This document shows positions 32,194-38,607 of a stretch of DNA of 64,000 nucleotides, in pieces. The translations under genes were made by a program, and so were the position numbers. The notes under the pieces are model-generated. The model was given only the letters and a program-made list of their open reading frames with translations, made no database searches and was not told where the DNA came from. Origin of the DNA: Balneola sp. Its GTDB lineage: Bacteria > Bacteroidota > Rhodothermia > Balneolales > Balneolaceae. Each line of letters opens with the position of its first letter. Within the stretch, counting starts at the first letter, position 1. The stretch lies in assembly GCA_003712055.1 (NCBI GenBank), contig RHLJ01000001.1, positions 930,001-994,000 on the forward strand, written 5' to 3'.

Positions 32194-32235
32194 GAACATT
32201 GAACTCTGAACTTCGAACTTCGATGTTCAATGTTC
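32194..32235. terminator. Hairpin repeat between convergent genes (second copy)
   Basis: GAACATTGAAC at 32194-32204 pairs perfectly with GTTCAATGTTC at 32225-32235, with GAACTTCGAAC-type words in between. It has the same design as the element at 16488-16515. It overlaps the last codon of pxpC. Confidence 0.6.
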
Positions 32236-33118
32236 AGAGTTCGATGTTCATACGTTCAAAACTCACGGTATCTCCGGGCTTTACCTGTCCAAGCCGCCAT
32301 AACTCGCTATTCAATACCTTAAGAATTCTTGGATAACCCCCAATCGTTTGGCCGTCTACCATAAGAATAATCGGTTCCCCGCTTTTGGGGAGCTGGATTA
32401 TTCCTGGCATTACCGGAGATGAAGTCATTTGAATATTTGGCACCTCAATACTATTCCCTGTTAATCGTAGCCCCATACGATTGCTGGATGAATCCACTGT
32501 GAATTTTTGACTCAGAACTTTTTTCTGCTCTGCTTCACTTAGCCAATCCCATTCGGGCGCCGCTATCACTTTAATGGTGACTTTGGAAGAGTAATAGGGA
32601 ATCTCCGCTTTATCAGCTTCTCGAATCAGCACCTCCCCCGAGGGCTCTTCCCAGCTAAGCACATCTCCTTTTTGAAGGCTTCTCCCATCCAAACCGCCAA
32701 AACCTCCAACTGTATAGGTCGAATAGGAATTCATAACCTGATTTACTTCCAGCATTCCTCGAACGGCCAAATACGCCCTGCATCCTCTGTCAGAAAACTG
32801 GAACGATAAAGTATCTCCTCTTTCAACCGTCAAGGTTTTGTTTATAGGTACTGGCTTTGAATTAATAGATGGCTTCATATCAGCGCCTGTAATAGCAATA
32901 GAAGCATTAGTCTCAAACTCATATTTCCCACCAGACATTGTCAATTCAAGGACAGGTGCACCAATTTCATTTCCTACCAGCCAATTGGATAATTCATAGG
33001 CTTTTCTATCCATTACCCCACTTAACGGTACTCCATACTTCCTAAAACCTATCCTTCCTATATCCTGAATAGTGGTGAATAAGCCTGCGCTGAGTACTTT
33101 CAAACTACCCATCTTCAA
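32234..33118 (-). CDS. pxpC: 5-oxoprolinase subunit C (biotin-dependent carboxyltransferase-like)
   Basis: PxpC/KipA homologue that works with PxpA and PxpB to open 5-oxo-L-proline to glutamate with ATP. Family segments seen: LFTTIQDIGRIGFRKYGVPLSGVMDRKAYELSNWLVGN at the N-terminus, LELTMSGGKYEF, SYSTYTVGGFGGLDGRSLQKGD, SNRMGLRLTG, and QLPKSGEPIILMVDGQTIGGYPRI near the C-terminus. At 294 aa it is normal length. The final few residues (RMNIEL) and the stop are encoded by a hairpin repeat. The start overlaps pxpB by 14 bases. Confidence 0.93.
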   Translation of the reverse strand: MKMGSLKVLSAGLFTTIQDIGRIGFRKYGVPLSGVMDRKAYELSNWLVGNEIGAPVLELTMSGGKYEFETNASIAITGADMKPSINSKPVPINKTLTVERGDTLSFQFSDRGCRAYLAVRGMLEVNQVMNSYSTYTVGGFGGLDGRSLQKGDVLSWEEPSGEVLIREADKAEIPYYSSKVTIKVIAAPEWDWLSEAEQKKVLSQKFTVDSSSNRMGLRLTGNSIEVPNIQMTSSPVMPGIIQLPKSGEPIILMVDGQTIGGYPRILKVLNSELWRLGQVKPGDTVSFERMNIEL

Positions 33119-33785
33119 ACTCCTCTTTAGATATGGGCTTGAACTTTATGGTATCGCCTGGATTGACTTGAGTAGGCGGAGTCTGATTGATATCAAAAAA
33201 AGAAAGAGGTGTTCTGCCGAGAATATTCCATCCTCCTGGACTTTCCAGCGAATAAACCCCTGTCTGATTACCTCCAATTCCAACCGACCCTGAAGGAATG
33301 GATGTTCTCGGACTTTGTTTCCTTGGGCAGGATATTCGCTCATCTAATCCAAATAAAAATACAAAGCCGGGTATAAAACCCATCATGGCTACGGTATATT
33401 CCGTTTTCGAATGAATTTCGATGACCTCGTCCCTCCCGAGCTTAGTATGGGTCTCAACTTCTTCCCAATCTAAGCCCAGTTCATAGCAAAGCGGGACAGT
33501 AATTATAGAGGCATTACTTCCCATCTCCGAACTGTTTGGTAGTGAAGCTAACTTTTTCAGAATGGATTTAAAGCTCCATGATGCTTCATCAAAAAAAATA
33601 CATAATGAGTTGTAAGAAGGAGCTAAATCGATAATTCCAGCTAGCTGGAGAGCCTCTATATCTCTGGATAGCTGGTGTATTTGCGAAAGTCTTCGCTCCC
33701 CTTCCGGAGAAACTAATAGAGCACCTTCTCCTAAAGCAGAGGGCTTCCACTCAACACCATTATTCTGGAAGGATGGCAACTTCAT
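33105..33785 (-). CDS. pxpB: 5-oxoprolinase subunit B
   Basis: PxpB/KipI homologue. Seen: GEGALLVSP at the N-terminus, VPLCYELGLDWEEVETHTKL, the family signature MMGFIPGFVFLFGLDERISCPRKQSPRTSIPSGSVGIGGNQTGVYSLESPGGWNILGRTP, and LSFFDINQTPPTQVNPGDTIKF. It forms the PxpBC subcomplex of the ATP-dependent 5-oxoprolinase. Overlaps pxpA by 26 bases and pxpC by 14 bases, so the operon is tightly coupled. Confidence 0.94.
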   Translation of the reverse strand: MKLPSFQNNGVEWKPSALGEGALLVSPEGERRLSQIHQLSRDIEALQLAGIIDLAPSYNSLCIFFDEASWSFKSILKKLASLPNSSEMGSNASIITVPLCYELGLDWEEVETHTKLGRDEVIEIHSKTEYTVAMMGFIPGFVFLFGLDERISCPRKQSPRTSIPSGSVGIGGNQTGVYSLESPGGWNILGRTPLSFFDINQTPPTQVNPGDTIKFKPISKEEFEDG

Positions 33786-34521
33786 GATTCTTCAGAAAAG
33801 TATGAATATGTTTTGCAAGCTCTGCCGCTCCTTCCGTATCACTATGAAGGCAAATCGTTTGAGCAGTTATTGGCTTTGTATCACCAGAAAATGTATTCAC
33901 TTCCCCATTCATTACCATGGAATAGATCTGGTCTAATACCTCTTCCCTCTTATGAAGGACAGCACCTTCCAGGCTCCTGGATCGCAAACTCAAATCATCT
34001 TCATAACTTCGGTCAGCAAATACTTCGTAAACCACGTCCAGTCCTAAATCCAGGGCTATTCGTGAAGAAATAAAACCTTCTGGTAAATATACTTTGATAT
34101 TTCCAGCTACGGATTTAATGACTTCAAGTACAGTTTGTGCCGTCTCTTTATCTTTTGCCGCATAATTGTACAAAGCTCCATGAGGTTTAATATGATGAAG
34201 TGCCAACCCTTCCTTATCAAGAATGGATAAAAATGATTCGAGTTGCTCTTTTATGCTATCCGATAACTTCTCCTGGGTGATATCCATCACCACTCTTCCA
34301 AAATTCTCTCTATCTGGATAACCCGGATGAGCGCCAATGGTCACGTAGTTTTCCTGAGCCATTTTCATTGTTGTACGCATCGAATACTCATCCCCAATAT
34401 GCCCGCCGCATGCAATATTACAAGATGAGATATAGGGCATGATCGCTTCATCCCTTAACCTGTGTTCCGGGGTTTTCCATTCTCCCAGATCACAATTAAG
34501 ATCTATTCGTTTTGTACTCAT
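33760..34521 (-). CDS. pxpA: 5-oxoprolinase subunit A (LamB/YcsF family)
   Basis: PxpA opens the family with IDLNCDLGEW and continues SSCNIACGGHIGDEYSMRTTMKMA, IGAHPGYPDRENFGR, HIKPHGALYN and CLHSDTEGAAELA, all hallmark segments of LamB/YcsF proteins. It binds 5-oxoproline and completes the PxpABC enzyme. At 253 aa it is full length. The ATG overlaps the stop of the upstream Nramp-like gene by four bases. Confidence 0.95.
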   Translation of the reverse strand: MSTKRIDLNCDLGEWKTPEHRLRDEAIMPYISSCNIACGGHIGDEYSMRTTMKMAQENYVTIGAHPGYPDRENFGRVVMDITQEKLSDSIKEQLESFLSILDKEGLALHHIKPHGALYNYAAKDKETAQTVLEVIKSVAGNIKVYLPEGFISSRIALDLGLDVVYEVFADRSYEDDLSLRSRSLEGAVLHKREEVLDQIYSMVMNGEVNTFSGDTKPITAQTICLHSDTEGAAELAKHIHTFLKNHEVAILPE

Positions 34522-35750
34522 AGAAAATGAAATACTGAATTCAAACTTCGGAAGCTTATCAGAACAGTGACCAAAATTACTCCCAAAGCCAGAATGTTCT
34601 GAACTTTTGAGTTTACATACTCTCCTAACAAGGATGATTTATTCATAATGTACAACAGAAAAGCCGCTACCAAAGGTAACAAGATGCCATTTGCTACCTG
34701 AGCGAACTGAATGATCTGTACAGGGTTAATTCCTAACATGGAAAAAATAACACCAATGATAAGGATCACCATCCAAATTGATTTAAATCGAAAAGAAGAT
34801 GTACCCTCTTCCCAACCTAGTATGCCTTTGGCTGTATAGGCTGCTGCTAGCGGAGCAGTGATAGCTGAAGAAATTCCGGCAGCAAATAATCCTGCTCCTA
34901 AAAAGTATCCTGACCAACTTCCTAATAACGGTTCCAATTGGGCTGCCATATCCGCAGCATTCGAGATGCCTCTTTCTCCAAACAAAGCAGTAGCACTAGT
35001 TATAATTATAGATGCAGAAATCAGTCCTCCCAAAATGATCGCTACATTATTCTCCCTTCTTAACTCAGGAAGTTCCTCCACTTTTTTGTACTTGTTTTGC
35101 ACTACTGATGCATGTAAGAATAGATTATAAGGAACCACCGTCGTGCCTATCAGTGCTACTACAGTAAGAAATTGTTCTGCTGAAGCTTTTGGGATTAATA
35201 AGCCCTTTAGTACTCCTCCCAAATCTGGTTGAACCACAATAGCTGTGGTCACAAAAACCAGGCTCATCAAACCAACCAATGCTATAAGTGATCTTTCAAT
35301 AATTTTTGAACTGCCCATCACCAGAATTATAAAAGCGATTGCTCCAATAATTATTGGAGGCAGGGAAAGACTAACCCCTCCCAGCTCAATGCTGAAATCT
35401 GATATCAACTCTTCAAAACCGAGTGCTGCACCGGCAATATTTCCACCTTCATAGGCTGCATTACCAATTACTATGGCACCAAGCACTAGACATATCCCTA
35501 AAAAGCGAACGATTGGGTTCGTTAGTTGCTCCCGAATAGCTTCTCCAAAACCCTTCTGTGTTACCAGCCCCAAACGAGCCGACATTTCCTGTAAAACGAT
35601 GGTGGCAATAACAGAAAATAAAAGAGCCCAAAGGAGCATATATCCCGATCTTACTCCGGCAAGAGTACATACGGTAACGGTACCAGGACCTATAAAAGCA
35701 GCTGTTACCAGGGTACTTGGACCAAAATATTTTCTAAGGAATGAATTCAA
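34518..35750 (-). CDS. Nramp-family transporter lacking the metal-binding motifs
   Basis: Polytopic membrane protein (about 11 helices) of the Nramp fold and first gene of the pxp operon. In metal-transporting Nramps TM1 carries DPGN and TM6 carries MPH. Here TM1 reads GPGT (residues 21-24) and TM6 reads VPYN (206-209), so the metal-coordinating Asp, Asn and Met are all replaced. Bacillus subtilis also keeps an Nramp-family gene (ycsG) in its ycsF/kip cluster. I infer transport of 5-oxoproline or a related organic solute rather than Mn2+ or Fe2+. Not proven. Confidence 0.85.
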   Translation of the reverse strand: MNSFLRKYFGPSTLVTAAFIGPGTVTVCTLAGVRSGYMLLWALLFSVIATIVLQEMSARLGLVTQKGFGEAIREQLTNPIVRFLGICLVLGAIVIGNAAYEGGNIAGAALGFEELISDFSIELGGVSLSLPPIIIGAIAFIILVMGSSKIIERSLIALVGLMSLVFVTTAIVVQPDLGGVLKGLLIPKASAEQFLTVVALIGTTVVPYNLFLHASVVQNKYKKVEELPELRRENNVAIILGGLISASIIITSATALFGERGISNAADMAAQLEPLLGSWSGYFLGAGLFAAGISSAITAPLAAAYTAKGILGWEEGTSSFRFKSIWMVILIIGVIFSMLGINPVQIIQFAQVANGILLPLVAAFLLYIMNKSSLLGEYVNSKVQNILALGVILVTVLISFRSLNSVFHFL

Positions 35751-36139
35751 GACTAATTAGTGTGGGCTATTTTTATTTATGAGTCATTAAAATTATTATT
35801 GGTCGAAAGGAAGGGAAACCTTTTACCTAAATCAATGTCCTGAAAACATGTTTTTATATAAAGGAATATCAAACATAGACATTGATGTATTATCCTTATT
35901 ACTTTCAGAGTCTTAAAAAATCACCATAATTAATCTACACGAAGTAAACCAGGCATTGATTAGCTATTTGAAGTGATATTGTTTTCTATGCCATATAAGA
36001 ACAGTAATAAAATTTCCTCAGCCAGCCTATGAGATTATGTACTATTACTACTCCTAACTTCGTATCATGGTGGGATTCATATCCGTTGTTCGGATTCCAA
36101 AACAGAAGAGTAAAACACGAAATCAGGTGATCATCCAGG
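35751..36139. other. Intergenic region without recognisable gene
   Basis: This 389-base divergent region holds the promoters of the Nramp/pxp operon and of the SRPBCC gene. It is AT-rich. I see no convincing -33/-7 pair, RNA gene or repeat. An open minus-strand stretch reaching into the SRPBCC gene shows no family features. Confidence 0.4.
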
Positions 36140-36589: not shown

Positions 36590-37684
36590 TTAGCTTAACT
36601 TTTCATCGTATACATCTATACACGTCTTCCAATTATAACCTTGTACGAGCTCCTGGGTATTAATCGATCTGAGTTGATCCCAGTTGATAAGCATATGTTC
36701 CAGGGCTGAAGAAAAATTACCTGCTTCGTACAGTAATGTGCCCTTCAAGTCCTCCGAAAGGTGTTCGGGATAAGCTAATCGATCAGGGAGTAAGGGAATA
36801 CAGTTGCAATACATTGCTTCGACGACACTTCCTCCAAAAAAATCCTGAATAGAAGTAACGGGTAAAATATCCGCCCTCCATAGCCAGGAAGCATACTCGC
36901 CACTTTCTTTAGTAAATCCCCAGTGCAAGATTTCTTCCTTAAACCATTCCTCGGCCTGATTAAAAATTGGAGGAATTACATCGTTCTGTTCACCTAATAC
37001 TGCAAGCTTAAAAGCTATCCCCTTTTCCTTGATCTCGAGCAATCCGTTAAAAAATTCCTCAGGGTTTTTATCATATTCCCATCTATGATTCCACAGGATT
37101 ACCGGCACTGAATTCTTTGCTTCTACTCTGTATTCATCAAGCCGGGATAAATCTAATCCAAGGGATAGTACCTCACTCTTAGCTTCAATATGCTGGATAT
37201 TGTTTTTATCTCTTTTGTCCGGGAACTGGTTCAAGAAAGCGGGAAGAGCATTTAAGAAAGAATCCTTATGGTATTTGGAATTAAAGAAAATCTTATCTGC
37301 AGCTATTGCTGAGGCATAGTTGATGAAAGCATAATGATTATCCCGTCGATTTTTGACATCCCGATCTTGAGGAGACCATGGGTAAGTGAGCTGATTTTCA
37401 TGAAAATAGATACTAACAGGTATTCCGACTGACTTCTTCCTTGTAAGAGCTAAAAAGGTAGTTAAATCCAGCATTGAGGAAGCAATAATGGAATCAGGCA
37501 TCTCTTCAAGTTGATTGAATTGCTCAGCTAAGGAAACAGCCCCGCCATGCATCCTCCACTTCCAGTGCCTGCCCGGCAGGCTTAGAATGTCTACACTATG
37601 AGAAGAGTATTTCTTGAATCCCTCACACCATTGGCGGTGGGAACCAGAAAAGAATGGCTCCAATAGTAAAATGTTTCTACCCAT
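36590..37684 (-). CDS. GT4-type glycosyltransferase related to tRNA-queuosine mannosyltransferase (QTMAN/GTDC1, DUF3524)
   Basis: The N-terminus ILLLEPFFSGSHRQWCEGFKKYSSH ... LSLPGRHWKWRMHGGAVSLAEQF is the DUF3524 signature shared with the animal queuosine-tRNA mannosyltransferase GTDC1/QTMAN. The second half is a GT-B nucleotide-sugar domain (WNHRWEYDKNPEEFFNGLL, LGEQND, HWGFTKESGEYASWLWRADILPVTSIQDFFGGSVVEAMYCNCIPLLPDRLAYPEHL). The ATG at 37684 forms a TAATG junction with the upstream gene, and 37690 is an alternative. By homology it may add a sugar to queuosine-tRNA. The bacterial acceptor is inferred only. Confidence 0.83.
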   Translation of the reverse strand: MGRNILLLEPFFSGSHRQWCEGFKKYSSHSVDILSLPGRHWKWRMHGGAVSLAEQFNQLEEMPDSIIASSMLDLTTFLALTRKKSVGIPVSIYFHENQLTYPWSPQDRDVKNRRDNHYAFINYASAIAADKIFFNSKYHKDSFLNALPAFLNQFPDKRDKNNIQHIEAKSEVLSLGLDLSRLDEYRVEAKNSVPVILWNHRWEYDKNPEEFFNGLLEIKEKGIAFKLAVLGEQNDVIPPIFNQAEEWFKEEILHWGFTKESGEYASWLWRADILPVTSIQDFFGGSVVEAMYCNCIPLLPDRLAYPEHLSEDLKGTLLYEAGNFSSALEHMLINWDQLRSINTQELVQGYNWKTCIDVYDEKLS

Positions 37685-38607
37685 TACCAATCCCGGCCTA
37701 TTACTTCGATGATAACTGGTAGATGATCAGAGCCAATATTTGGACCTACTCTTCGATGCATTACATCCAATCCATTGCTAACTAGTGCATGGTCAATGGT
37801 AATTGAAATTAGCGACCAGTAAGTATTCCAGGTTGGTAGCAACCCAAAGTCCTTCCTTGAGTCTCGCACTTCTAATTCGCTAGTTAGTCGTTTGAAATTT
37901 GGAGAAAAGGTTGTGGAATTAAAATCACCAATTAGCACATAAGGCTTATCATAGCTCTTCAAGAAGTCATTAGCCGCTGAAAACATTGCATTTCTCGTAT
38001 CAAATAACTCTTTCGAAACAGGTGGAGGAGGGTGGATATTCATGATTGAAAGCTCCTTCCCATTACCATGTATCTCTACCAATTTTGCAAAAGTATTCCC
38101 GGATTTACTATGAATTATGATAGAACTATCTATTTCAAATTTGCTATACACTCCCATTCCAAACACTCCAGAACTTGGATCAAGCTCCATAAATGGAAAG
38201 TCCTCTTCAAAATCTTTTAAATACTCCATCCAATCGGGAGTAAATTCCTGGAAGACCAGAACGTCAAACTTTCCTCTTCTTATAAAAGTACCGACCTCTT
38301 TATAATTATCATTCGATGATAAAAGATTGATCGAAGCAATCTTTATCCCTTCCTCATAATATGATAATGGCACTGGCCCCAAATTTTTAATCGACGAATA
38401 AAATAGCATTGCTCCCAAAAACAGAGCTACAAAACCTGATTTCCACTTCTTTGCGACTAATAAGAGGACAGCTATTGCAGCGAAATAAATCACATAGTAC
38501 AATCTGAAATGAGAGAAGGCATCAAATACCCAATTCCACCTCCCAAGAAAACCAAGTAAAACTGGGATTAACCCTAATGCGAGGAGGTATTTAGGGAAAT
38601 GCTTCAT
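37684..38607 (-). CDS. Membrane-anchored endonuclease/exonuclease/phosphatase family protein
   Basis: Three N-terminal transmembrane helices (about residues 5-25, 37-50, 57-70) precede an EEP metal-dependent phosphodiesterase domain: IASINLLSSND, DVLVFQEFTPDW (catalytic Glu), LIGDFNSTTFSPNF (Asp and Asn) and SDHLPVIIEV (Asp-His). Such proteins hydrolyse phosphodiester or lipid phosphate bonds on the outer face of the membrane. Substrate is unknown. Its stop overlaps the start of the QTMAN-like gene by one base, so the two are co-transcribed. Confidence 0.87.
   Translation of the reverse strand: MKHFPKYLLALGLIPVLLGFLGRWNWVFDAFSHFRLYYVIYFAAIAVLLLVAKKWKSGFVALFLGAMLFYSSIKNLGPVPLSYYEEGIKIASINLLSSNDNYKEVGTFIRRGKFDVLVFQEFTPDWMEYLKDFEEDFPFMELDPSSGVFGMGVYSKFEIDSSIIIHSKSGNTFAKLVEIHGNGKELSIMNIHPPPPVSKELFDTRNAMFSAANDFLKSYDKPYVLIGDFNSTTFSPNFKRLTSELEVRDSRKDFGLLPTWNTYWSLISITIDHALVSNGLDVMHRRVGPNIGSDHLPVIIEVIGRDW

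Follow-up and report, generated by a model that had tools for sequence, protein, structure and literature searches.

The closest described relatives of the carrier reported here are PxpT of Corynebacterium glutamicum and YcsG (=MntG) of Bacillus subtilis, proteins of the PF01566-type fold that are 50% identical to one another (PMC13274462) and that stand in an operon with pxpABC, the genes for the three 5-oxoprolinase subunits. Growth of C. glutamicum on 5-oxoproline depends on PxpT, as shown with complementation, metals not being excluded as substrates (PMC13274462). Also described is the “orphan” outgroup of SLC11, which lacks the hallmarks of Mn and proton transport and to which Cellier’s two papers (2022, 2023) assign no function (PMC9606685, PMC10606218). 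In a 64,000-nt stretch of Balneola sp. DNA (assembly GCA_003712055.1, contig RHLJ01000001.1, positions 930,001 to 994,000; “the window”), a PF01566 carrier leads the minus-strand operon nramp-pxpA-pxpB-pxpC. We propose, with a probability of roughly 0.8, that it is a 5-oxoproline importer feeding PxpABC, on a branch distinct from PxpT/YcsG.

The operon is as the original prediction had it: the Nramp-type gene comes first, the four frames are open without internal stops, and all overlap (nramp/pxpA by 4 nt, pxpA/pxpB by 26 nt, and pxpB/pxpC by 14 nt; Table 1). All three PxpABC subunits are present and intact and pass their family cut-offs; PxpC passes the domain model TIGR00724, and falls below the narrow equivalog cut-off NF045499 (244.8 of 500).

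The carrier belongs to the Nramp superfamily, scoring 294.8 bits against Pfam PF01566 (gathering score 29.8). Transmembrane helix 1 (TM1) contains AAFIGPGTVTV and TM6 contains GTTVVPYNLFLHAS. In an alignment with ten DPGN/MPH proteins of the same phylum, G21 and T24 stand at the TM1 Asp and Asn, N104 at the TM3 Glu, and T203, V206, and Y208 at the TM6 Ala, Met, and His, bearing out the prediction of GPGT for DPGN and VPYN for the MPH motif. The Asp, Asn, Glu, Met, and His that characterize the MntH/SLC11 metal carriers are all substituted in the window carrier, and in every one of the 57 members of its GPGT branch that were examined. Neither the TM1 DxxN nor the TM6 A/CxxM plus His signature of SLC11/MntH is found in the window carrier (GPGT and TTVVPY, respectively), and its scores stay under the NCBIfam cut-offs for MntH (163 of 430 bits) and for the nramp subfamily (109 of 272.5 bits); the broad Nramp_1 is the sole metal-carrier-type NCBIfam model that it passes (90 of 50). 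A TM6 Thr is common to the window carrier and the NRMT magnesium carriers (EleNRMT), but the NRMT signature DxxG-TxxA/T (PMC8806188) is replaced by GxxT-TxxV. The GPGT and TM6 motifs are not a chance occurrence, because they are conserved in all pxp-linked relatives of the branch that were examined.

Aligned and placed in a tree, 105 PF01566 proteins fall into several groups: the metal carriers with DPGN, an NRMT-like set (DNDAGG), the YcsG/PxpT group (GPGF, FNIGN, GGTVGGY), the GPGT branch, and a few other small types. The GPGT branch comprises 57 rows, with a Shimodaira–Hasegawa-like approximate likelihood ratio test (SH-aLRT) support of 97, motif columns included. The YcsG group, anchored by a Corynebacterium pacaense locus (L129) and PDB entry 9a52 (“YCSG-FABL”), is set apart by a branch 3.3-3.6 in length with support 100, and the window carrier falls outside it. 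(Another query, taken for YcsG, proved to be YcsG-type but not the B. subtilis protein, its best match being 80% to Agrobacterium vitis, and was not used as an anchor.) Entry 9a52 is 49% identical to the model of C. pacaense PxpT and 20% identical to that of the window carrier; because of this difference and the separate branch, the window carrier is neither YcsG nor PxpT, and we rejected it as an orthologue of either (∼20% identity). The parallel with B. subtilis ycsG drawn in the original prediction is an analogy and not orthology, since YcsG/PxpT lie on a different, very distant branch; the missing metal ligands and the operon with pxpABC are shared.

The window carrier is a member of Cellier’s orphan outgroup as judged by the listed substituents: Y100/N104 in helix 3, and T203 (the Ala-228 site), V206, and Y208 in helix 6 (PMC10606218). 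Among the columns that are 100% conserved in both the GPGT and YcsG branches and occupied differently in metal carriers are G21, N104, and Y208, at the positions of the TM1 Asp, the TM3 Glu, and the TM6 His, respectively. With ligand columns removed, a grouping of orphan plus YcsG versus MntH plus NRMT received support of 93/98; the alternatives orphan plus MntH and orphan plus NRMT were not rejected by the approximately unbiased test (p-AU 0.48 and 0.40), and a branch separated the orphan set from all other sequences in only 24% of bootstrap replicates. The substrate site common to the orphan and YcsG branches may reflect either shared descent or convergence. Further PF01566 branches without metal ligands occur in the same phylum, with GPGS (L078, L180) or GTGS (L177, L179, L206, L211); the L078 carrier gene is followed by two genes that have no convincing Pfam match.

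We examined 198 genomes of the phylum (Bacteroidota), counting PxpA within 1.5 kb and HyuB within 4 kb of the carrier as neighbours. The GPGT branch occurs in 47 of them, and every one of these 47 encodes PxpA or a HyuB/OPLAH-type enzyme, compared to 29 of the 151 genomes lacking the carrier (Fisher p 9e-26, kinship uncorrected). The carrier adjoins the enzyme in 33 of the 47 genomes, PxpA in 25 and HyuB in eight. Carrier and enzyme vary together within families, since the window’s own family has 22 genomes with both, two with neither (G006, G025), and one with PxpA alone (G013). Nramp-type neighbours were found at 31 of the 46 PxpA loci, 25 of them GPGT and six YcsG-type GPGF. None of the 31 keeps DPGN/MPH; pxp-linked homologues retaining both motifs, which would have counted against the original prediction, are absent from the sample. 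YcsG-type genes lie directly 3′ of pxpA in the Bacteroidota-type loci examined. The C. pacaense order is carrier, pxpA, pxpC, and then D-glutamate cyclase, in agreement with that of C. glutamicum.

PxpABC and HyuAB/OPLAH are non-homologous enzyme types, and both stand beside the GPGT branch. PxpA (46 genomes) and HyuB (30 genomes) share no genome among the 198, as if one replaces the other, and the linked partner switches once on the GPGT-branch tree. Next to the carrier, HyuB is either part of a fused protein of ∼1,288 aa, the length of OPLAH, or encoded separately from HyuA. The fused form (1,288 aa) matches PDB entries 7hk5 (1,288 aa, named N-methylhydantoinase) and 6yra_A (record name 5-oxoprolinase). 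The association extends to haloarchaeal plasmids, where the carrier lies directly 5′ of hyuA, followed by hyuB, in 10 of 11 records, often with a ribbon-helix-helix (RHH) regulator before and a racemase-family gene (Amdase/Asp-Glu-hydantoin racemase) after. The RHH/CopG regulator matches only RHH_1 in Pfam, giving no sign of nickel sensing. 5-Oxoproline is the substrate common to PxpABC and the OPLAH branch of HyuAB.

Whereas the sequence, the operon, the branch, the loss of ligands, and the co-occurrence are observed, substrate, direction, and binding mode we infer, as follows. A LeuT-fold secondary carrier would import 5-oxo-L-proline (pyroglutamate), and PxpABC, encoded in the same overlapping operon, would then open the ring with ATP to yield glutamate, for carbon and nitrogen. 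In TM1, the unwound centre G-P-G-T, without Asp or Asn, would bind the 5-oxoproline carboxylate through backbone amides and the hydroxyl of Thr, and Asn104 of TM3 with Thr203 and Tyr208 of TM6 (for Glu, Ala, and His) would hold the lactam ring. In amino-acid carriers of the amino acid–polyamine–organocation (APC) superfamily, a TM1 glycine motif binds the carboxylate, and by analogy we suggest that the GPGT/GPGF segment acts likewise. A structure model built from an alignment of the window carrier with YcsG-type loci (mean predicted local distance difference test, pLDDT, 74.7) has TM1 broken at residues 18-21 and TM6 at 205-206, i.e. at the motifs. Its nearest solved fold is EleNRMT (TM-score 0.82), with DraNramp (MntH/SLC11) at 0.78-0.80 and 21-23% identity in the structure match; the APC amino-acid carriers (CAT homologue 5oqt, AdiC) are lower in the match list.

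The comparative evidence favours 5-oxoproline for the GPGT branch, in line with the original prediction of 5-oxoproline or another organic solute rather than a metal: in the 198-genome sample co-occurrence is complete, there are two enzyme partners, and pxp-linked DPGN/MPH proteins are absent. It is further supported by the G/N/Y conserved at 100% in both this branch and that of PxpT, which is needed for growth on 5-oxoproline, by one carrier copy apart from the pxp genes that adjoins a gamma-glutamyltranspeptidase gene, and by the complement of metal carriers in the genome of the window itself, which has FeoB and two ZIP carriers and, among its PF01566 matches, no DPGN Nramp. The gamma-glutamyltranspeptidase (L061 6304-8046) lies directly 3′ of the carrier, with DUF2891 on the other side and that genome’s pxp genes elsewhere.

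Several points weigh on the other side. We found no transport assay on any GPGT-branch member in the literature. The Fisher p overstates the evidence, because related genomes are not independent, and 14 of the 47 carrier copies are not beside the enzyme, which is encoded elsewhere in the genome (5 kb off in G037). For the HyuAB neighbours no NCBIfam model scores above its cut-off, the nearest, caprolactamase and acetophenone carboxylase, being far below. The structure model behind the proposed binding mode has a mean pLDDT of 75 and came from a distant alignment. HyuAB proteins, moreover, act on several lactams and hydantoins.

This last point bears on the alternative that survives best, which we nonetheless consider unlikely: that the branch accepts a broader or different range of compounds, either cyclic amides or small carboxylates, such as hydantoins, other lactams, and D-5-oxoproline. 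In that case 5-oxoproline would be one of several substrates, or no substrate at all in the HyuAB-linked members. The racemase-family gene of the haloarchaeal operons would fit such a range, as would the carrier copies linked to neither enzyme; against it stand the substrate shared by the two enzyme types and the pxp-linked members, the window’s included, that have only PxpABC as an enzyme neighbour. Less probable still is import of a metal (Mn, Mg, or Fe) that the pathway needs, with a regulatory link to 5-oxoprolinase, the proposal made for B. subtilis YcsG/MntG. There, overexpression of YcsG is reported to have raised cellular Mn, which also counts against 5-oxoproline and gave the protein its name MntG, and MntR bound the ycsG operon promoter (PMC10448178). 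The YcsG branch is itself without the ligands, so their absence alone does not exclude a metal; of the original argument from ligand loss, the loss stands and the exclusion does not follow from it alone. Membership in PF01566 likewise speaks for a metal, but the SLC11 ligands are gone from 57 of 57 members together with the NRMT signature (PMC8806188), FeoB and ZIP are already at hand, and the strict pairing with two unrelated enzymes of the oxoprolinase type would be left without an explanation. That the protein is instead an exporter or sensor of 5-oxoproline or glutamate is very hard to credit: direction is unreadable from sequence and 5-oxoproline forms spontaneously inside cells, but C. 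glutamicum without the analogous PxpT fails to grow on external 5-oxoproline (PMC13274462), and export would compete with the co-transcribed enzyme.

Some observations made along the way concern these carriers and their neighbours. The genome of the window holds a second, very divergent Nramp-like gene (contig C4 52312-53424; L002, L080) with neither DPGN nor GPGT, followed by a haemolysin-III-like gene; a weak third PF01566 match (contig C6) was set aside as resembling a sodium:solute symporter, not Nramp. In genome G081, a major facilitator superfamily carrier encoded between pxpC and pxpA (L051 3706-4977) may represent a third type of carrier for 5-oxoproline. Beside pxpA in genome G154, at a contig end, lies a broken or mis-assembled GPGT-type fragment (L055 5125-5394). 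In one family (f21; L030, L032, L033, L034, L036/L061), the GPGT carrier gene is overlapped at its start, or directly adjoined there, by a DUF2891 gene that may belong to the pathway. YcsG-type genes are near D-glutamate cyclase (PF07286) in two loci, that of C. pacaense (L129) and one of Brenneria (L089), the latter adjoining the cyclase directly, with no pxp gene found within ∼5 kb.

Around the operon itself, a promoter scan upstream gave no signal above chance. A 28-nt inverted repeat (window 32194-32249; 86% complementary, zero spacer) at the convergent junction spans the pxpC 3′ end and is a candidate terminator or repeat element. A gene for a tRNA-queuosine alpha-mannosyltransferase family protein (PF12038) lies nearby (window 36590-37690).

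Table 1. The Balneola sp. carrier–pxpABC operon and its features, in window positions
Feature	Position	Strand	Details
Nramp-family (PF01566) carrier, GPGT “orphan” branch, proposed 5-oxoproline importer	34518..35750	-	TTG start, 410 aa
TM1 motif GPGT	35679..35690	-	Residues 21-24, at DPGN place
TM3 motif YEGGN	35439..35453	-	Residues 100-104; N104 at SLC11 Glu place
TM6 motif GTTVVPYN	35124..35147	-	Residues 202-209, at G-A-x-x-M-P-H-N place
pxpA, 5-oxoprolinase subunit A	33760..34521	-	LamB_YcsF PF03746, 277.8 bits; NF003814 (PxpA subfamily) above cut-off
pxpB, 5-oxoprolinase subunit B	33105..33785	-	CT_C_D PF02682; TIGR00370 equivalog above cut-off
pxpC, 5-oxoprolinase subunit C	32234..33118	-	TTG start; CT_A_B PF02626; TIGR00724 above cut-off
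Intergenic stretch between operon and divergent AHSA1-like gene; presumed promoter region	35751..36139	.	389 nt

The link from this fold to 5-oxoproline is already published, for PxpT; new, as far as the literature consulted shows, are the GPGT branch, the second enzyme partner, the archaeal presence, and the likely function of the orphan outgroup. GPGT-branch members are annotated as divalent metal transporters, and a manganese importer label is also found in databases; the divalent metal transporter label is probably wrong for this branch. The case also provides a second, independent test of the dispute over YcsG, Mn versus 5-oxoproline. More tentatively, and we would not yet count on it, the orphan outgroup of SLC11 as a whole may transport 5-oxoproline, in bacteria as in haloarchaea and with two unrelated enzyme partners; together with YcsG/PxpT, this would suggest that metal carriers such as MntH and DMT1 descend from carriers of a small cyclic amino-acid derivative whose substrate site gained Asp, Asn, Met, Glu, and His. 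The result proposes a function for the closest relatives of SLC11, which have served as a reference in SLC11 phylogenies without a known substrate, and opens to experiment the question of how an amino-acid carrier could acquire a metal site.

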